From: Sulfurimonas denitrificans DSM 1251
Lineage (GTDB): Bacteria; Campylobacterota; Campylobacteria; Campylobacterales; Sulfurimonadaceae
DNA: 64,000 nt
Direction of reading: 5' to 3'
NCBI RefSeq assembly: GCF_000012965.1
Contig: NC_007575.1
Location: 62,001 to 126,000 of the forward strand
The translations under genes were made by a program, and so were the position numbers. Shown piece after piece: positions 26,469-51,744 of this stretch. How positions within the stretch are numbered: the stretch's first letter is position 1; each line of letters starts with the position of its first letter. The notes under the pieces are model-generated. The model searched no databases, had not been told where the DNA came from, and saw nothing but the letters and a program-made list of their open reading frames with translations.

Positions 26469-27962
26469 ATGGAAAATCGTCCATTAGAGTACGACTACAC
26501 AATTGCTAAGATGTTTATGCTTACAACCATCGTCTTAGGAATTGTCGGAATGCTCATCGGTGTAATATTAGCATTTCAACTTGCATATCCAGGGTTAAAT
26601 TTAATACTTGGGGATAATCTAGCTGAATATACTAACTTCAGTCGTCTTCGTCCGCTGCATACAGATGCAGTAATATTTGGCTTTACACTAAGTGGTGTTT
26701 TTGCTACTTGGTATTATGTAGGTCAGCGTGTTTTAAAAGTATCGATGGCAGAATCAAAGCTACTTATGGCTTTGGGAAAACTTCATTTTTGGCTCTATTT
26801 AGCAGTTGTAGCTGCTGTTGTTGTTTCTCTTTTTGCGGGAGTTACTACTTCAAAAGAGTATGCTGAATTTGAGTGGCCTATAGATATTGGCGTAGTTGTT
26901 GTTTGGGTTTTATTTGGTATGAGTATTTTTGGTCTTATCGGTATCCGCCGTGAAAAATCACTCTACATATCTGTATGGTACTATATAGCAACGTTCTTAG
27001 GAATAGCTATGCTTTATCTATTTAACAATATGGAAATTCCTACAATGTTCGCTACTTCACCAGCAGGTGAGAGCGGGATAGGTGCATGGTATCACTCTGT
27101 ATCAATGTATGCAGGAACAAATGACGCTCTAGTTCAGTGGTGGTATGGTCATAATGCAGTTGCATTTGGTTTTACAGTTCCTATCGTTGCTATGATTTAC
27201 TACTTTTTACCAAAAGAGTCAGGTCAGGCAATCTACTCGTATAAACTCTCATTATTGTCTTTTTGGGGACTAATGTTTGTTTATTTATGGGCTGGTGGAC
27301 ACCACTTGCTATACTCAACTGTTCCAGACTGGATGCAGACAATGGGTTCGATTTTCTCTGTAATTTTGATTCTTCCATCATGGGGTTCAGCTATAAATAT
27401 GCTCCTTACAATGAAGGGTGAGTGGCAACAAGTTGCAGCGTCTCCACTTATTAAGTTTATGATTTTAGCTTCAACTTTCTACATGTTCTCAACATTAGAG
27501 GGACCAATTCAAGCGATTAAATCAGTTAACGCTATTGCTCACTTTACTGACTGGATTGTTGGTCACGTACATGATGGTGTTCTTGGTTGGGTTGGCTTTA
27601 TGATAATGGCAGCTCTATACCATATGGCTCCTCGTGTATTTAAACGTGAAATTTACTCTAAAGCGATTATGACGGCACAATTTTGGATTCAAACGTTAGG
27701 TGTTGTTCTGTACTTTACTTCTATGTGGATTGCAGGGATTACACAAGGGATGATGTGGCGTGCTCATGATGAGTTTGGTAACTTAGCTTACTCATTCATA
27801 GATACTGTAACAGTTCTTCACCCTTACTATACTATTCGTGGAATAGGCGGTCTTTTATACCTAGTTGGTTTCTTGATGTTTGCTTATAACATCTATAAGA
27901 CTATGTCTTCTCGCCCTGTTGAAGAGCGTGAATTACAAAATGCATCGCCTATGGGCGCTTAA
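26469..27962 (+). CDS. ccoN: cbb3-type cytochrome c oxidase subunit I
   Basis: 497 residues and about 12 transmembrane helices. Heme and copper ligands are visible: His in SRLRPLHTDAVIFGF for the low-spin heme, the helix VI region WWYGHNAVAFG, the HHLLYSTVPDWMQ pair and WIVGHVHDGVLGW for the hemes. This C-family heme-copper oxidase reduces O2 with high affinity and pumps protons in the inner membrane. AAGGAGG lies eight bases upstream. It is the first gene of ccoNOQP. Confidence 0.97.
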   Translation: MENRPLEYDYTIAKMFMLTTIVLGIVGMLIGVILAFQLAYPGLNLILGDNLAEYTNFSRLRPLHTDAVIFGFTLSGVFATWYYVGQRVLKVSMAESKLLMALGKLHFWLYLAVVAAVVVSLFAGVTTSKEYAEFEWPIDIGVVVVWVLFGMSIFGLIGIRREKSLYISVWYYIATFLGIAMLYLFNNMEIPTMFATSPAGESGIGAWYHSVSMYAGTNDALVQWWYGHNAVAFGFTVPIVAMIYYFLPKESGQAIYSYKLSLLSFWGLMFVYLWAGGHHLLYSTVPDWMQTMGSIFSVILILPSWGSAINMLLTMKGEWQQVAASPLIKFMILASTFYMFSTLEGPIQAIKSVNAIAHFTDWIVGHVHDGVLGWVGFMIMAALYHMAPRVFKREIYSKAIMTAQFWIQTLGVVLYFTSMWIAGITQGMMWRAHDEFGNLAYSFIDTVTVLHPYYTIRGIGGLLYLVGFLMFAYNIYKTMSSRPVEERELQNASPMGA

Positions 27963-27977
27963 TTGAAAGGATAAAAT

Positions 27978-28670
27978 ATGTTTCATTGGTTAGAAAAACA
28001 TCCGTTCTTTTTTGCGGTAGGTGTATTTATAGCAATTGCTTTTGCAGGTTTGATAGAGATTCTTCCAAATTTTGCTCAAGCTTCTCGTCCTGTAATCGGT
28101 ACGGCTCCTTACTCTACTTTAGAGTTGGCTGGTCGTCACGTTTATATTAAAAACAGTTGTAATGCTTGTCACTCTCAGCTTGTTCGTCCATTTAAGTCAG
28201 AGACTGACCGTTATGGTCACTATTCACTAAGTGGAGAATATGCTTACGATAGACCGTTTCTTTGGGGCTCAAAAAGAACAGGTCCAGATTTAATGCGTGT
28301 TGGTAACTATAGAACTACTGACTGGCATGAAAATCATATGAAAGATCCTCAAAGTGTTGTTCCAGGTTCAATTATGCCAGCATACAATTGGATGTTTACA
28401 AATAAAGCTGATATAGATACAGCATATGCGGAACAGTTAACAGTTGCAGAGCATTTTTCGGTTCCTTACAATCAAGATGTACCTATGAGAGATGGTTCTG
28501 TGAAAAATGTAAAGATGGCTCAAAGTCTTAAAGGTGCTCATGATATAGCTTTAGAAGAGGCGAAAATAGTTGCAGTGGATATGAAAGATCAAGATGTAAA
28601 AGATGCAGTTGCGCGTGGTGAAATCCCTGAAATCGTTGCATTAATAGCATATTTGAATAGTCTTAAATAG
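27978..28670 (+). CDS. ccoO: cbb3-type cytochrome c oxidase subunit II (mono-heme)
   Basis: 230 residues with one N-terminal membrane anchor and a periplasmic cytochrome c domain. The single heme site is CNACH, and the axial methionine is probably within VVPGSIMPAYNWM. CcoO passes electrons from CcoP to the CcoN core. GAAAGG precedes the ATG. It follows ccoN by 15 bases. Confidence 0.97.
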   Translation: MFHWLEKHPFFFAVGVFIAIAFAGLIEILPNFAQASRPVIGTAPYSTLELAGRHVYIKNSCNACHSQLVRPFKSETDRYGHYSLSGEYAYDRPFLWGSKRTGPDLMRVGNYRTTDWHENHMKDPQSVVPGSIMPAYNWMFTNKADIDTAYAEQLTVAEHFSVPYNQDVPMRDGSVKNVKMAQSLKGAHDIALEEAKIVAVDMKDQDVKDAVARGEIPEIVALIAYLNSLK

Positions 28671-44529: not shown

Positions 44530-45408
44530 ATGGCTGGATTTAGCGCATTAAGAGGTCAAGGACATTGGCCGACACTATTGGCTACATTTTTGTACTTTGA
44601 TTTTAGTTTCATGGTTTGGACCATGCTTTGACCACCCTCTAGTGAGATTGCCGATTATTTGGCTATTTGCGGATTTATTATAAGTGAATCGCAAAAAGCG
44701 ATGCTTCTCTCTATTCCCGTTTTAGCAGGAGCAATTTTACGTATGGTTTTAGGATTTGGTATTGATAAATTTGGTGTTAAAATAACTGCACTTGCTTCTC
44801 AACTTGTAGTTATTATAGTTCTGTTTTATGCATATTTTAGAGGTGCAAGCTTATCTTACGATGAGCTATTGTTTGTAGCTATAGGACTTGGTTTTGCAGG
44901 TACTTCATTTGCAGTCGCACTTCCTCAGGCAGGGCAGTCGTATCCGCTGAAACTTCAAGGTACGGTTTTGGGAATTGCTTGAGCTGGAAATATTGGTGTT
45001 GTAATAGATTTTCTTTTTGCTCCAAAAATCGCTGAACTTTGGGGTTGGGAGAGCGTATTTTTAGTCGGTGCGGTTTTGTCAAGTATCATTTTTGTAACTT
45101 ATATTTTTATTGCAAAGGATGCACTGCTCGAGGTTTATACTCCACAACCAAAAAAACTGCGTGATTATGCCAAGCTGCTTCAATATAAAGACACTTGGTG
45201 GTTTAACCTTTTTTATGCGGTAAGCTTTAGAGGATTTGTTGGGTTTGCAGGGTATATGAAAGTTTATTTTATAAATAGTTATCAAGCTGACATGAGTGCT
45301 TTTGGAGTTGATATTTTAAATGAGCCAAATGTCAAAGTTGTAGCAGGTTATTTTGGCGTACTTTGTCTTTTTTTAGAGTTATTATTGAAAGATTTTTCCA
45401 GTTTATAG
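44530..45408 (+). pseudogene. narK: Nitrate/nitrite transporter NarK, two in-frame TGA and truncated
   Basis: One reading frame from the ATG at 44530 to a TAG at 45406-45408 (293 codons) encodes an NNP-family MFS nitrate transporter. Hallmarks are GHWPTLLATFLYFDFSFMVWTML at the start, AILRMVLGFGIDKFG, and AGNIGVV in helix 5. TGA codons interrupt it at codon 34 (44629-44631) and codon 151 (44980-44982). Both fall where the family has glycine: after WTML and in GIA-x-AGN. The C-terminal third, including the second nitrate signature, is missing, since NarK is normally 400-450 residues. Promoter and ribosome-binding site look intact. A pseudogene is the simplest reading. Confidence 0.8.
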
Positions 45409-45579
45409 CCGTCTATACTTTGCCCAGCTTGTTTGCGGGTTAATGCTAAGCAGTCTTGAAGCGCCTTTTAGACAAAGATTTCCGTTATTTATTGGATATG
45501 AAACATCCCCAAGCAGTTTTGAGTCATCATAAACAACACCACAACCAACACCGCAATATCCACAAACTGATTTTATCAT
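45403..45579 (-). pseudogene. N-terminal fragment of molybdopterin nitrate reductase (NasA-like)
   Basis: About 58 residues from an ATG at 45577-45579. The sequence MIKSVCGYCGVGCGVVYDDS followed by NNGNLCLKG is the N-terminal [4Fe-4S] motif (C-x2-C-x3-C-x27-C) of assimilatory nitrate reductases and related formate dehydrogenases. The frame stops after NPQTSWAKYRRL, where a full enzyme would go on for 650 or more residues. It overlaps the 3' end of the narK remnant by six bases. Both genes appear to have lost their 3' parts in one deletion. Confidence 0.75.
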
Positions 45580-45740
45580 CTCTAAGCCTATTTTAAAAAG
45601 CAAAAAATTATATACAAATTAGACAATTTTTGCTTTTTAGCATTGTTTAAAAATTAATCAATTTGCTGGTTTTTAAAGTTGCATATTTTGCTAAAGTTTT
45701 ATTTGTAGTTTTTTTATCAAAAAAATTTTAAGGAGAAAAG

Positions 45741-46334
45741 ATGACGGATTCGGTTGATGTGTTAAACATGTTAAAGATTGTATATACATTATACACTTTA
45801 GCGGTTATTTCACTTATATGTTGGTTTGGGCTTGGGGTTGTAAATCCAAAAGGCAAACCTAGAATAGTAAAGGCTTCTACATTTTATGTTTATGTAGGTG
45901 TCCTTATAACGGTTGGTGTAGCGATTCATATCGTAACATTTAATAAAATCCCATGGGTGGAGATAGACTTTAAAAGAGACTCTCTAAAAGCTTCGCAAGT
46001 CGTAAATATAACTATAGAAGATCACAAGTTTATACTTCCTAGCCCAATAATAGAACTTAAATGCAATGAGTATGTTATGTTTGACGTCATAAGCAAAGAT
46101 CTGACATACGGTTTTGGGATTTTTAGACAAAATAACTCCATGGTTACGCAGATGCAGGTAGTCCCCGGCAATAAAAACGACCTTATGTGGAAGTTTGGCA
46201 AAAACGGAGTCTATCATCTAAGGTCAACGGAATATTCGGGTCCAAAAGGTGCACACATGTATATAAAAGATGTTTTTGAAGTAACAGGTTGCATTGAGGA
46301 TGACAAATATTCACAAAAAAGGGGGAGTTTATGA
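45741..46334 (+). CDS. Subunit II-like cupredoxin of divergent heme-copper enzyme (no CuA ligands)
   Basis: 197 residues with two transmembrane helices (about 11-33 and 47-65) and a periplasmic cupredoxin domain (about 85-185). The CuA loop of oxidase subunit II reads C-x3-C-x3-H-x2-M. Here it is S162-T-E-Y-S166-G, so both cysteines are serine, and the upstream CuA histidine region (LTYGFGIF) has Tyr. CuA therefore cannot form, and electrons probably come from quinol rather than cytochrome c. AAGGAG lies six bases before the ATG. It overlaps the catalytic subunit by four bases. Confidence 0.8.
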   Translation: MTDSVDVLNMLKIVYTLYTLAVISLICWFGLGVVNPKGKPRIVKASTFYVYVGVLITVGVAIHIVTFNKIPWVEIDFKRDSLKASQVVNITIEDHKFILPSPIIELKCNEYVMFDVISKDLTYGFGIFRQNNSMVTQMQVVPGNKNDLMWKFGKNGVYHLRSTEYSGPKGAHMYIKDVFEVTGCIEDDKYSQKRGSL

Positions 46335-47968
46335 GTTTTTTACACACTTTGATATATGGTAATGAGGGCGGACTTAAAACAGACGGTCTGACTCCAACCC
46401 AAAAAGTTACCCTTAGAGCTGTAATTATAGGCGTTCTTTACTATGGTTTATCAGCTTTAGAGGGAATGATGATGAGAGTGCATGCTATCACTCCGCTTCC
46501 TATGCTAAATGACACACACTACTTTTCCGTTATGACGGTTCACCCGATAGTTGGTATTTTCGGCTCAACTTATCTCATAGTTTTTGGGGCGTTTACATTT
46601 CTTGTTCCATACTTGATGAAAAAACCGCTCTATAGCATAAAACTTGCAAACGCTACATGGATGCTGATTGCTCTTGGTGCTCTGCTCGCTTGGCTTGGCG
46701 GTTTCTTGTTTCACTATGCTCCGCTTTATACGCTCTACTGGCCGCTTCCTGTTGATTTTAAACAGTTTGATGCGGTTGGTGGGCTTGTGTTTATCTCGGG
46801 AATTGCGCTTATTATGATTGGAACTTTGGGTTTTATCTACAACATTTTTGCAACAGTATTTTATACTGAAGAGGGACATGAAAAGAGAGCGTTTAAGCCG
46901 CTTCTTCTCTCTGCTTTGGGGATTGATGGTATATTAAATATTTGGTACAAGATGACTGGTCGTGAGCCATACTCAAAAGAGCCAGCAGTTTCTCTTCCAG
47001 TTGTGGCAATCTTTCGCGGAACAATTGACACATTTCTTGACGCACTTGTGATTTTGACATGCGGAGTTTTAATCTTAGTCTATATTATCGGCGACCTATC
47101 AGGTGCTCCTATGGACTACACGGCAGTAAATGCGCTTCTTTATAAAAACTTTTTCTGGTGGGGCCTTGACCTTATCGCAGATGGTTTGGTGCTTATTTAT
47201 ATAGCTGGTTCTTGGTATCTTTTAGCGATGCTTATCACAGGAAAAAAACTCTTTATGCAAAATATCGCAAGAGCGGCTCTGTTGCTTGAGCTTATCGTTT
47301 CGTGGGCAGTTTGGTCGCATCACCTTTTGGCAGATCAGGGTCAGTACAACATGATGAAACTTGTAAGCGGCGAGATGGTGACGGCATTTGAGCTTGTTAC
47401 ACAGGGAATAGCGATTTTCATTACGCTTGTAACTTTGTGGAGTGCAAGACCTCTTAAAATGACGAATGAGCTGAAGTTTTTATTAGGCGGTATTTTGGGC
47501 TTTATGCTTGCTGTTCCTGCTGGAATCATTCAAGCAGATATGGGGCTAAATAGAATTTTACACAACTCTCAATGGGTTGCGGGACCGCACTTCCATGTAG
47601 CAATACTTGTCGGACTCACGATGACGCTTTATAGTGCCATTTACATACTTTGGCCGACACTTACAAACGGTGTAAAACTTTACAGCCAAAAAATGGCAAT
47701 GTATCACTTTTGGGCGCATCTAATCGGCGGCATAGGGATGGGTGCGTTTATGGGAATGGCAGCAATGGATGGAATGTTAAGACGAACACTCTATCTTGAG
47801 GGCGAATACCAGACATATATGATACTCGCAGGTATTTGTGGGCTTTTACTTCTCTCTGCATGGATAGTGTTTTTACTAAATGTTGTGCTGAGCATCGGCA
47901 TAAAAGGGCTTATCGGTATCTTTACAAAGTCAAAACTTCAAACTAAAGATTTAGTTCCAGAGGTGTAA
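46331..47968 (+). CDS. Divergent heme-copper superfamily catalytic subunit, probable NO reductase (gNOR-like)
   Basis: 545 residues and about 12-14 transmembrane helices. Heme-copper ligands are His71 in TVHPIVG, the His330-His331 pair in WSHHLLADQG, and His420 and His422 in GPHFHVAI. The helix VI motif, usually G-H-P-E-V-Y, reads FWWGLDLIADG (about 274-285), so one active-site histidine is replaced, with Asp280 nearby, and no crosslinked tyrosine is evident. A lost helix VI histidine together with a CuA-less subunit II is what has been described for gNOR-type NO reductases. It would reduce NO to N2O in denitrification. O2 reduction cannot be excluded. Confidence 0.75.
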   Translation: MSFLHTLIYGNEGGLKTDGLTPTQKVTLRAVIIGVLYYGLSALEGMMMRVHAITPLPMLNDTHYFSVMTVHPIVGIFGSTYLIVFGAFTFLVPYLMKKPLYSIKLANATWMLIALGALLAWLGGFLFHYAPLYTLYWPLPVDFKQFDAVGGLVFISGIALIMIGTLGFIYNIFATVFYTEEGHEKRAFKPLLLSALGIDGILNIWYKMTGREPYSKEPAVSLPVVAIFRGTIDTFLDALVILTCGVLILVYIIGDLSGAPMDYTAVNALLYKNFFWWGLDLIADGLVLIYIAGSWYLLAMLITGKKLFMQNIARAALLLELIVSWAVWSHHLLADQGQYNMMKLVSGEMVTAFELVTQGIAIFITLVTLWSARPLKMTNELKFLLGGILGFMLAVPAGIIQADMGLNRILHNSQWVAGPHFHVAILVGLTMTLYSAIYILWPTLTNGVKLYSQKMAMYHFWAHLIGGIGMGAFMGMAAMDGMLRRTLYLEGEYQTYMILAGICGLLLLSAWIVFLLNVVLSIGIKGLIGIFTKSKLQTKDLVPEV

Positions 47969-47983
47969 AAAAAGGAATTTGTT

Positions 47984-48580
47984 ATGGTGAATATACAAAA
48001 GGTATCAAATCAAATTTTAAATGACGCTCTATATAACACGCTTCTCTTTGAGATAAAAGAGAAGCTGTCTCTTCAAGATATTACTCCTGTAATGGTTGAG
48101 AATCTTTTACGAGAAGAGCCCTCGCTTCTAACAGAGTACAAAGAGATAAACAGACAAAGCGAACTCTCAAGTATTCAGGTAAAAGAGCTTGTTATTAATA
48201 AAAACGATACATATAAAATTATAAAAATAAAAAAAGAGATAAATCAAAATATTCAGATTTTAAAAAATCTTGAAAATTTTGAAACAGACTCCAAAAACAG
48301 TGCTTATCCTATTTGGATAGGGAGTGTCGGGGTTATGGTAATTTTTATGGCTCACAATGTTATAGCACTCTTTAGTGAGCTCTATTCTACACATAGCTTG
48401 CTTGTTTATGGATCATTTGCACTAATTCTGTTTTTTACGTATTTTGGCTATATAAAGATTAAAAAAAACCATGACAGCCAGCATCAACTCTTCAAAAAAA
48501 TATACGTAACAACTCAAAGGATGATAAAAGACGGTCTTAAAGCTTCAAATTTTACGCATGATGAAGTGTATGAAAAATAA
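47984..48580 (+). CDS. Unknown two-helix membrane protein following the heme-copper operon
   Basis: 198 residues not recognised as a family. The first 110 residues are soluble and helical (NQILNDALYNTLLFEIKEKLSLQDITPVMVENLL). Two transmembrane helices follow (PIWIGSVGVMVIFMAHNVIALF and LLVYGSFALILFFTYFGYIKI), then a basic cytoplasmic tail. AAAGGA precedes the ATG, and it starts 15 bases after the catalytic subunit stop, so it is probably co-transcribed. It may be an assembly or regulatory partner of the NO-reductase-like enzyme. Confidence 0.6.
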   Translation: MVNIQKVSNQILNDALYNTLLFEIKEKLSLQDITPVMVENLLREEPSLLTEYKEINRQSELSSIQVKELVINKNDTYKIIKIKKEINQNIQILKNLENFETDSKNSAYPIWIGSVGVMVIFMAHNVIALFSELYSTHSLLVYGSFALILFFTYFGYIKIKKNHDSQHQLFKKIYVTTQRMIKDGLKASNFTHDEVYEK

Positions 48581-48735: not shown

Positions 48736-51700
48736 CTAAATCTGTGCAACAGGCTCAGAGAAATAGTACCCTTGAGAGTAATCAACTCCTAGCTCTCTTA
48801 CAATATCAAAAATCTCTCTATTTTCAACAAATTCGGCGACTGTTTTCATTCCAAGTTTCTTTGAGAATTCAACAATAGTTGAGACTACTAAGAGAGCATT
48901 TTTATCCTTATCTAAATTTTTGATAAGAGAACCGTCTATCTTTAGGTAGTCTGCTCTAAGCTTGATTAGATACTCAAAGTTGCTATACCCAGTTCCAAAA
49001 TCATCTATCGCAATCTTGCATCCATAACTTTTAACCTTATCTATAAAAGCTACAATGCTCTCAAAATTATCAATAGATTCAGATTCTACTATCTCAAAAA
49101 TAACCCTCTCTCCTATGCCATACTGCTTCAACATCTCAAAGATATAAGTCGTTGTTCGGGGCTCTAAAATATCTAATACAGATAGATTTATAGAGAAATG
49201 AGCATGTTTATCCTTAAATAGTTCAAAGGATTGCTTTACCACTGTTTTAGTGATTTCAGAGTACTGTCTTGTCTGCTTTGCAACTTCTAAGAAGAAAAAT
49301 GGAGAGATTATTTTACCATTATCAACTATCCTAATTAAACACTCATATTTAGTTGGGTTCTCTCTGTTGTCTATGCTGTTATTTATAATAGGTTGATAAA
49401 AAGTTACTAAATTGTTCTCTTTTATTGCACTAGAGAGTTTTTTTGCCCAGTTGAGATTATTTTTATATTGATCTTCTAATGAGATTTCAGAGCTATAAAT
49501 CAAAAAGTCTGTACTACTCTTTTTTGTAATTTTTAATGCCATGTTTGCAGTTGAGAGAAGATGTTCCTTTTCCTCAAAAGAGATACCAGCACTACAAGAG
49601 ATTAGAAGCTCTTCATTACCTATATAAAACTTCTTTTTAATAAGTTTCAAGATACCTTTTGTTTTCTCAAGAAGCTCATCTTTTGGAGCGTTAATCGCTA
49701 AAGTTACAAACTCATCACCTTGAAGTCTGTAAAATTTGAAATTTTTATCATGTTGGATATACATGTTAATTTTACTAGCAATTGTTTGGATAACTAAATC
49801 TCCAAAATTGTGTCCATAAAAATCATTTATTTGTCTAAAATTATCTAGGTTGAAGATAGCAACAGATAACTTTTCATTCTCTTGCATATCATAATGTAGT
49901 CTGAGCCTATTTCCACATCCCGTTAATGAGTCGGTTTTAGCGGCTATTTCAAACTCCTCTTTATGACGTATAATTTCGGTAATGTCAAAACGAATCTCAA
50001 GATACTCAATAATCTCTCCATGTAGATTTTTTATCGGAACAATAGTTGTTTTGGTCCAAAAATCTACTCCATATTTCGTTTTGCTTTTTATAACACCTTG
50101 CCATAACGTTTGATGATTTTCTAGAGCTTCATCTTGAGAGTTAAAAAAGTTATGGTTTTTCCCAACAAGCTCTTGGAGTGAGTATTTGCTAATCTCTAAA
50201 AATTTGTCATTTGCATATGTGATAATACCATTAACATCTGTTCTTAGTAAAATAGCGCTTGAGTCAATCGCCTTTTCATACTCTTTTGAGATATGCATAG
50301 AGTAGTCAAAGTTGGTTGCTGAAATTTTTAATTGATCTTCGAAATAACGAGCTATCTCTTTTTCTTGAGTGATGTCACTACACATTGCTATATACTCTAA
50401 AATATTGCCATTTTTATCAATTATGGGGCTTAAAATAGCCTTTATCCAATATGTTGCTCCACTCTTCGTAATGTTTTTAATTTCATTAATCCATGGCTTT
50501 TTAAGTTCTCTGACCTCATACCACATCTGATCAAAGAATTTTTTATCACTATGTGGATGTATTACAAGATCATAAGTTTTTCCAATTAGCTCCTCTTTTG
50601 TGTAACCGCTAATTTTGCAAAACTCATCATTAACATAACTGATAATTCCGTTTTTATCATTTTTTGAAACTATAAAACCTCTATCAATTGTTGATTTGTA
50701 CTGCTCTAAAAGAAGAAGTGAGTTGTCATATTTGCTCTCTAGAGAGCTAGCAGAAAATAGAATTTTTCTCGCTATGAGCAGTAAAAGAATAGTAACAATT
50801 ATTGCAGAGAGACCTAAAAATGAGAGAAGCATTGCAAGTTTATAGTGGATAGAGTCTAACTTTTGATTTACAAGAGTATTTATGGTATTGAAGAGACGCT
50901 CTTCTACGTTTCTTAGCAGATTCATGCTTTTTGTTGCTCTTTGAAACCATTGTGAATAGTCTGTTGTAAGGCTGAATTTGTTTTTATTTTTGACAATATC
51001 ATTAATAATTTTAAACATCTCATCAACATCTTCTCCTGTAAATACATCATTATAGAAGTTGATAATATCTTTGTTTGAGGCTGTTTTAAAGTTTTGTGTC
51101 TCAAGATTATATACTTTTAGATGCTCTTTAAAAAGTATAAAAATGTCATCTGAAACATCTCTGCTAAGGAGAGCTTGAACTAAGATTGAGCGAATCTGTC
51201 CCAACTCCTCTTTAGCCGAAGATAGATAGCTGTAAGATTGTATGCAGTTTCTGTTATCTTTATCTTCAATCAAAGATGGGATTGTTTTTATTAGATTTAA
51301 CAAAGAGGCTATATTTTTTGTGTAGAAGCATCTGGCTTCTGAGAGAGGTATATTTAGTAAATTTGCATTTTCTCTTAATGCAAGAATATCCAAGAGCTTT
51401 AAGGAGGTGCTATCTATGCACGTTTGGCATGAGAGCATTACTCTTTTTGCTTCATTTATTGCAATATTTGAATTCTCTTTTGCAATAAGAAGCTGTTGAG
51501 TGTTTTCATCTATACCATCATTTGCCAAGAGCTCAGTTGTTACACCTCTCTCTATTTGCAAAGAGTGAACAGCTTTTGAGATGGCTTCTGCTTCCAAGAT
51601 ATGATGTTTTGTAAATTCTAAATTATTTTTATCAACAAGCATCCCATAGAGTATGGTAATTGATAACCCTATAACAAACAAAAGAGGAATAACTAGAATA

Positions 51701-51744
51701 ATTAAGAGTTTTAATTTTAAATCTAACTTTATATAAAAACCCAT
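48736..51744 (-). CDS. NIT-PAS-PAS-GGDEF-EAL regulator (nitrate/nitrite-sensing type)
   Basis: 1002 residues: transmembrane helix (about 10-36), periplasmic NIT-like sensor domain (about 50-290) with the family-type LQIERG near residue 62, second helix (303-328), PAS domains (about 345-460 and 485-595), GGDEF domain (about 600-750) and EAL domain (about 765-1000). The cyclase motif is QGDEF (675-679), missing the first glycine. The phosphodiesterase motif is E-C-L (801-803) with DDFGTGYSNFEYL intact. It probably breaks down rather than makes c-di-GMP in response to nitrate or nitrite. It converges on the NO-reductase operon. Confidence 0.8.
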   Translation of the reverse strand: MGFYIKLDLKLKLLIILVIPLLFVIGLSITILYGMLVDKNNLEFTKHHILEAEAISKAVHSLQIERGVTTELLANDGIDENTQQLLIAKENSNIAINEAKRVMLSCQTCIDSTSLKLLDILALRENANLLNIPLSEARCFYTKNIASLLNLIKTIPSLIEDKDNRNCIQSYSYLSSAKEELGQIRSILVQALLSRDVSDDIFILFKEHLKVYNLETQNFKTASNKDIINFYNDVFTGEDVDEMFKIINDIVKNKNKFSLTTDYSQWFQRATKSMNLLRNVEERLFNTINTLVNQKLDSIHYKLAMLLSFLGLSAIIVTILLLLIARKILFSASSLESKYDNSLLLLEQYKSTIDRGFIVSKNDKNGIISYVNDEFCKISGYTKEELIGKTYDLVIHPHSDKKFFDQMWYEVRELKKPWINEIKNITKSGATYWIKAILSPIIDKNGNILEYIAMCSDITQEKEIARYFEDQLKISATNFDYSMHISKEYEKAIDSSAILLRTDVNGIITYANDKFLEISKYSLQELVGKNHNFFNSQDEALENHQTLWQGVIKSKTKYGVDFWTKTTIVPIKNLHGEIIEYLEIRFDITEIIRHKEEFEIAAKTDSLTGCGNRLRLHYDMQENEKLSVAIFNLDNFRQINDFYGHNFGDLVIQTIASKINMYIQHDKNFKFYRLQGDEFVTLAINAPKDELLEKTKGILKLIKKKFYIGNEELLISCSAGISFEEKEHLLSTANMALKITKKSSTDFLIYSSEISLEDQYKNNLNWAKKLSSAIKENNLVTFYQPIINNSIDNRENPTKYECLIRIVDNGKIISPFFFLEVAKQTRQYSEITKTVVKQSFELFKDKHAHFSINLSVLDILEPRTTTYIFEMLKQYGIGERVIFEIVESESIDNFESIVAFIDKVKSYGCKIAIDDFGTGYSNFEYLIKLRADYLKIDGSLIKNLDKDKNALLVVSTIVEFSKKLGMKTVAEFVENREIFDIVRELGVDYSQGYYFSEPVAQI

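Follow-up and report, generated by a model that had tools for sequence, protein, structure and literature searches.

Here, we report that a three-gene operon of Sulfurimonas denitrificans DSM 1251 very probably encodes a putative gNOR-type NO reductase (NorG/NorH) together with a dedicated third membrane protein. The operon lies in a window of 64,000 nucleotides (contig NC_007575.1, positions 62,001 to 126,000 of the forward strand), from the first letter of which all coordinates below are counted. The ORFs of subunit II and subunit I overlap by 4 bases, and the third gene follows subunit I after a gap of 15 bases (Table 1). Judged by its sequence, the operon is a gNOR (norGH), a family already described in Sulfurimonas, and is in itself no discovery. 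New here are the third membrane protein tied to gNOR, the match of Glu354 in subunit I to a conserved glutamate of cNOR and qNOR, and a genome (G131) in which gNOR is the sole protein of its superfamily family PF00115; these points add something testable.

Table 1. Features of the putative gNOR operon (window coordinates)
Feature	Coordinates	Strand	Basis or remark
gNOR subunit II, 197 aa	45741..46334	+	Cupredoxin domain that lacks CuA ligands, preceded by two TM helices at the N-terminus
gNOR subunit I, 545 aa, predicted catalytic heme-copper subunit	46331..47968	+	12 TM helices; PF00115, Foldseek, tree
His71, helix II, predicted low-spin haem b ligand	46541..46543	+	Shares its alignment column with helix II His in every family
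Residues 210-215 (GREPYS), helix IV-V loop	46958..46975	+	Deleted in the clade without the third gene
Asp280, at the position of the CuB/FeB-binding His of helix VI	47168..47170	+	Alignment
Asp284, in place of the oxidase active-site Tyr or the cNOR Glu (Glu211)	47180..47182	+	Alignment; PMC8756737 Table A4
His330-His331, helix VII, predicted metal B ligands	47318..47323	+	Alignment
Glu354, helix VIII, aligns with conserved Glu280 of cNOR and qNOR	47390..47392	+	Alignment
His420 and His422, helix X, predicted ligands of active-site haem and haem b	47588..47596	+	Alignment
Third gene, 198 aa, probable gNOR-specific accessory protein	47984..48580	+	gNOR adjacency; AlphaFold model

Subunit II matched no Pfam family, and its NCBIfam match to cytochrome c oxidase subunit II (CoxB, 1.7e-5) fell far short of the family cut-off. 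A profile built from 27 homologues, when searched against the PDB, matched CuA domains (best 1.3e-8). In the alignment with CuA subunits, the His-Cys-Cys-His columns are occupied by Tyr123, Ser162, Ser166 and Gly170, and Glu164 and Met173 of the CuA region are retained. The pattern is kept across 107 homologues, with Tyr123 in all 107, Ser162 in 106, and either Ser or Ala at position 166 in all 107. By this alignment, subunit II is a cupredoxin-type oxidase subunit II that has lost its CuA ligands, and the two-subunit form with such a subunit agrees with what defines gNOR.

Subunit I matched PF00115 (5.1e-48), and its AlphaFold model (pLDDT 74) resembled cytochrome c oxidases in Foldseek (TM ~0.7). 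The active-site geometry of the model was not relied on, because pLDDT falls to 54-59 around residues 260-290. The residues were placed by aligning subunit I, in MAFFT, with cNOR, qNOR and oxidases of types A, B and C. In helix VI, FWWGLDLIADG stands opposite FWFFGHPEVY of A-type oxidases and WWVVHLWVEG of cNOR, which puts Asp280 at the His column and Asp284 at the Tyr/Glu column. His71, Asp280, Asp284, His330, His331, His420 and His422 were invariant in 104 of 104 subunit I homologues, which excludes chance and indicates that there is no hidden helix VI His. An Asp where oxygen reductases have the active-site Tyr is also the residue by which Table A4 of PMC8756737 defines gNOR. Glu354 was invariant as well (104/104), in the motif TAFE as against SALE in cNOR/qNOR, and none of the aligned oxidases carries an acid in this column. 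The alignment thus shows the acids Asp284 and Glu354 at the catalytic glutamate positions of cNOR/qNOR. The column of the A-type K-channel Lys is Ala361 in subunit I, and the invariant helix acids Glu348, Glu354 and Asp233 leave a proton path open. In addition, one extra residue stands immediately ahead of the helix X His pair in all gNORs compared, and the other families are without it.

We then placed subunit I in a heme-copper tree of 34 sequences, including ten gNORs and one eNOR-like reference, with no sNOR among them; none was found on plasmids. There, gNOR formed its own clade with full support (100/100) on a long stem (1.81), outside any oxidase clade. The group closest to it comprised the B-type oxidases and the eNOR-like Thermus protein (87/83), and a sister relation of gNOR and B-type is not firmly supported. 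A tree constrained to join gNOR with cNOR/qNOR was rejected (p-AU 0.036), and one joining it with A-type was not (p-AU 0.18). Membership in cNOR/qNOR was dismissed on the same test and on Asp280 in the place of the helix VI His. Since this grouping is rejected, the acids common to gNOR and cNOR/qNOR look convergent, and would have arisen independently if the tree holds. Taken together, tree and alignments show an own-clade heme-copper enzyme without CuA, whose predicted metal B site consists of two His and one Asp. The eNOR-like reference (L133:1851-3536) is encoded on the Thermus plasmid pTthSNM6-6b; its helix VI contains HGAQQ, and its helix X contains HFK, with Lys in place of the second His. 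Its subunit II has an intact CuA, and Rrf2 and DUF542 genes adjoin.

These features were compared with what has been published on gNOR. Table A4 of PMC8756737, which follows Hemp & Gennis 2008 and cites Sievert et al. 2008, gives D as the active-site residue, no proton channel, and Sulfurimonas, Sulfurovum and Persephonella as the genera. The family is further described as norGH, quinone-oxidising and non-electrogenic (PMC8906906), and as a proposed NO reductase related to the B-family, the biochemically characterised NORs being cNOR, qNOR, bNOR and eNOR only (PMC11388526). As cited in these three papers, it goes back to Hemp & Gennis 2008, Sievert et al. 2008 and Murali et al. 2024. We found no measured gNOR activity in the literature, where gNOR is called proposed only, and PMC8756737, PMC8906906 and PMC11388526 mention neither the third gene nor the match of Glu354 to cNOR Glu280. 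A name-blind homologue search, from which the genome records of S. denitrificans itself were left out, recovered Sulfurimonas, Sulfurovum, Nitratiruptor, other Campylobacterota, Persephonella and one Bacteroidota MAG, and thus all three published genera. The nearest named relatives were Sulfurimonas MAGs (97% and below).

The S. denitrificans operon shares with the published gNOR the Asp active-site residue, the cupredoxin-type subunit II and the genera. With cNOR and qNOR (NorCB, NorZ) it has in common the second-sphere acids of helices VI and VIII and the same proposed reaction, but gNOR forms a separate clade, has Asp for the helix VI His, and carries a cupredoxin rather than a cytochrome c as subunit II. 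The B-type (ba3) oxygen reductases are the closest clade, and the gNOR cupredoxin is related to their CuA domains; in contrast to them, gNOR lacks CuA, the helix VI His and the active-site Tyr. Likewise, eNOR and sNOR are two-subunit, B-related NORs with a cupredoxin, and at the active-site position Gln is found in eNOR and Asn in sNOR (PMC8756737), as opposed to Asp in gNOR.

A first-pass annotation of this DNA had read both CuA cysteines as serine, the His pair and the helix II and X histidines as kept, and FWWGLDLIADG as standing in for G-H-P-E-V-Y with loss of the helix VI His; the alignments bear out each of these readings. It had argued from them against a cytochrome c oxidase, a candidate that we also rejected, as CuA, a three-His CuB site and the active-site Tyr are all missing and the tree speaks against it. 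The match to gNOR-type NO reductases that it proposed holds as a family assignment (own clade, Asp active site, the genera of PMC8756737), while NO reduction by gNOR itself is something that we infer.

Three PF00115 proteins are encoded by S. denitrificans, namely CcoN, the NorB of a cNOR, and gNOR subunit I. The canonical cNOR (NorCB) sits beside nirS, so that gNOR would be a second NOR of this organism; its genome also holds two copies of NosZ, and ccoN and ccoO of the cbb3 oxidase are found at 26469-28670 of the same window. We surveyed 249 Campylobacterota genomes, in which gNOR was present in 27 and absent from 222. With kinship among the genomes ignored, nirS occurred in 24/27 gNOR genomes versus 13/222 gNOR-free ones (p 5e-21), cNOR in 23/27 versus 14/222 (p 5e-19), and NosZ in 21/27 versus 55/222 (p 1e-7). 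One genome, G131, carries nirS and nosZ without cNOR and has gNOR as its sole PF00115 protein, although this is a 99%-complete draft from which a contig may be missing.

In the mechanism that we propose, gNOR would receive its electrons from menaquinol and not from cytochrome c, because CuA is missing and because published statements say so. Haem b (His71/His422) would hand the electrons on to the active-site haem (His420) and to metal B, which is probably iron with His330, His331 and Asp280 as ligands. There, the reaction 2 NO + 2 e- + 2 H+ -> N2O + H2O would take place, presumably with no proton pumping. As a NOR additional to cNOR, the enzyme may act in the nitrate-to-N2 pathway or protect it. 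Since most gNOR genomes also carry cNOR, its use may be respiratory or detoxifying. That gNOR reduces NO for detoxification, or with a soluble periplasmic donor in place of quinol, seems to us rather unlikely, although a reading of this kind has several points in its favour: the cNOR of those 23 genomes would make gNOR redundant for respiration, gNOR is unlinked to nir genes, and NO detoxification has been suggested for the additional NORs of Methylomirabilis (PMC6094997). Similarly, the lack of nirS in 3 of the 27 gNOR genomes (G125, G146 and G229) suggests that the role may be NO detoxification. However, the operon is intact and invariant throughout a phylum and is present in Aquificota too, gNOR is the only NOR candidate in G131, and subunit II has neither CuA nor haem c able to take electrons from such a donor.

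The third protein matched no family in Pfam or NCBIfam and had no sequence relative in the PDB, and a fold search against the PDB gave nothing better than E 0.34. In its AlphaFold model (pLDDT 86.9), the N-terminal domain is helical, two TM helices span ~108-152, and a long helix forms the C-terminal part. The ORF is real, with intact frames and conservation down to ~20% identity. It adjoins subunit I in 24/27 gNOR genomes and in 0/222 gNOR-free genomes (p 2e-30, kinship ignored); of the 77 loci of named genomes that could be assessed, 69 have it behind gNOR, Persephonella among them. These counts favour the earlier suggestion that a two-helix protein of no known family could be a partner of the enzyme; as to whether it always co-occurs, it is confined to gNOR genomes, but not all of them have it. 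We conclude that the third protein probably serves gNOR specifically, either as an accessory subunit or in assembly, which is the simplest reading. In L041, L042 and L044, the third gene is doubled in tandem behind gNOR.

The third gene is missing from L111 and from one clade of gNOR loci (L013, L015, L016, L054, L057-L059, L061, L063 and L103), and it was not found elsewhere in the genome in the clade members G053, G125, G225 and seven others. Every member of this clade has a deletion of ~4-6 residues at positions 210-215 of subunit I. By helix count, this helix IV-V loop should face the cytoplasm, where the soluble, Lys-rich portions of the third protein should also lie. We would set at about even chances a model in which gNOR has three components across most of its range, with a gNOR-exclusive two-helix protein, new to the literature, that docks on the cytoplasmic IV-V loop as a subunit or assembly factor, and in which one sub-clade lost this protein together with a piece of the loop. 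The soluble parts of the protein would both lie in the cytoplasm, and it would contact the loop and stabilise or assemble the complex. In a loop-free tree, the loop changes once and the third gene twice, the extra case being L111, where the gene is lost and the loop kept. Since loop deletion and gene loss make up one shared event, the link between them is suggestive only. The clade member L103 is a Prolixibacteraceae (Bacteroidota) MAG, which may reflect horizontal transfer or contamination.

We hold it improbable that the third protein has nothing to do with gNOR and is only carried along in the operon: its low conservation (~20-25% between main clades) and its absence from an entire clade and L111 fit such a view, but it never occurs without gNOR among the 249 genomes, it stays directly downstream despite rearranged neighbourhoods, also in Aquificota, and the loop deletion goes along with its absence, though as a single event. 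An unusual O2-reducing quinol oxidase derived from B-type oxidases, in place of an NO reductase, is highly improbable and was rejected on residues and tree, for although B-type oxidases are the closest tree neighbours and a subunit II without CuA is also typical of quinol oxidases such as CyoA, the Tyr and helix VI His of nearly all aligned oxidases (the C-type Tyr, which sits at another place, is the exception in that column) are both Asp in 104/104 gNORs, gNOR strongly co-occurs with nirS and cNOR, and G131, which has nirS and nosZ, encodes no other heme-copper protein.

Outside the three genes, we saw no shared gene neighbourhood around the gNOR operon, and in S. denitrificans no nir or nos genes adjoin it. 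Upstream lie a NarK nitrate transporter remnant with in-frame stops (44560-45408, + strand) and a molybdopterin oxidoreductase stub of 60 aa (45403-45603, - strand), which together look like a decayed assimilatory nitrate locus. The molybdopterin oxidoreductase is intact (~660 aa) and divergent from norGH in L032, L034 and L035, the last of which has an intact narK as well. Convergent with the operon is a gene for a NIT (nitrate/nitrite sensing)-PAS-GGDEF-EAL protein (48736-51744, - strand), which was not seen at the corresponding place in L032-L035.

Campylobacterota are major denitrifiers at redoxclines. To our knowledge, gNOR is among the last NO reductase families that owe their name to sequence and have no measured activity, and since S. 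denitrificans is cultivable, the question of gNOR activity can be settled there. The three-gene unit indicates what to co-express. Moreover, surveys that count only cNOR and qNOR overlook cases like G131. Finally, with Glu354 and Asp284 next to a metal ligated by Asp, gNOR would be a case in which catalytic acids for N2O formation evolved twice.
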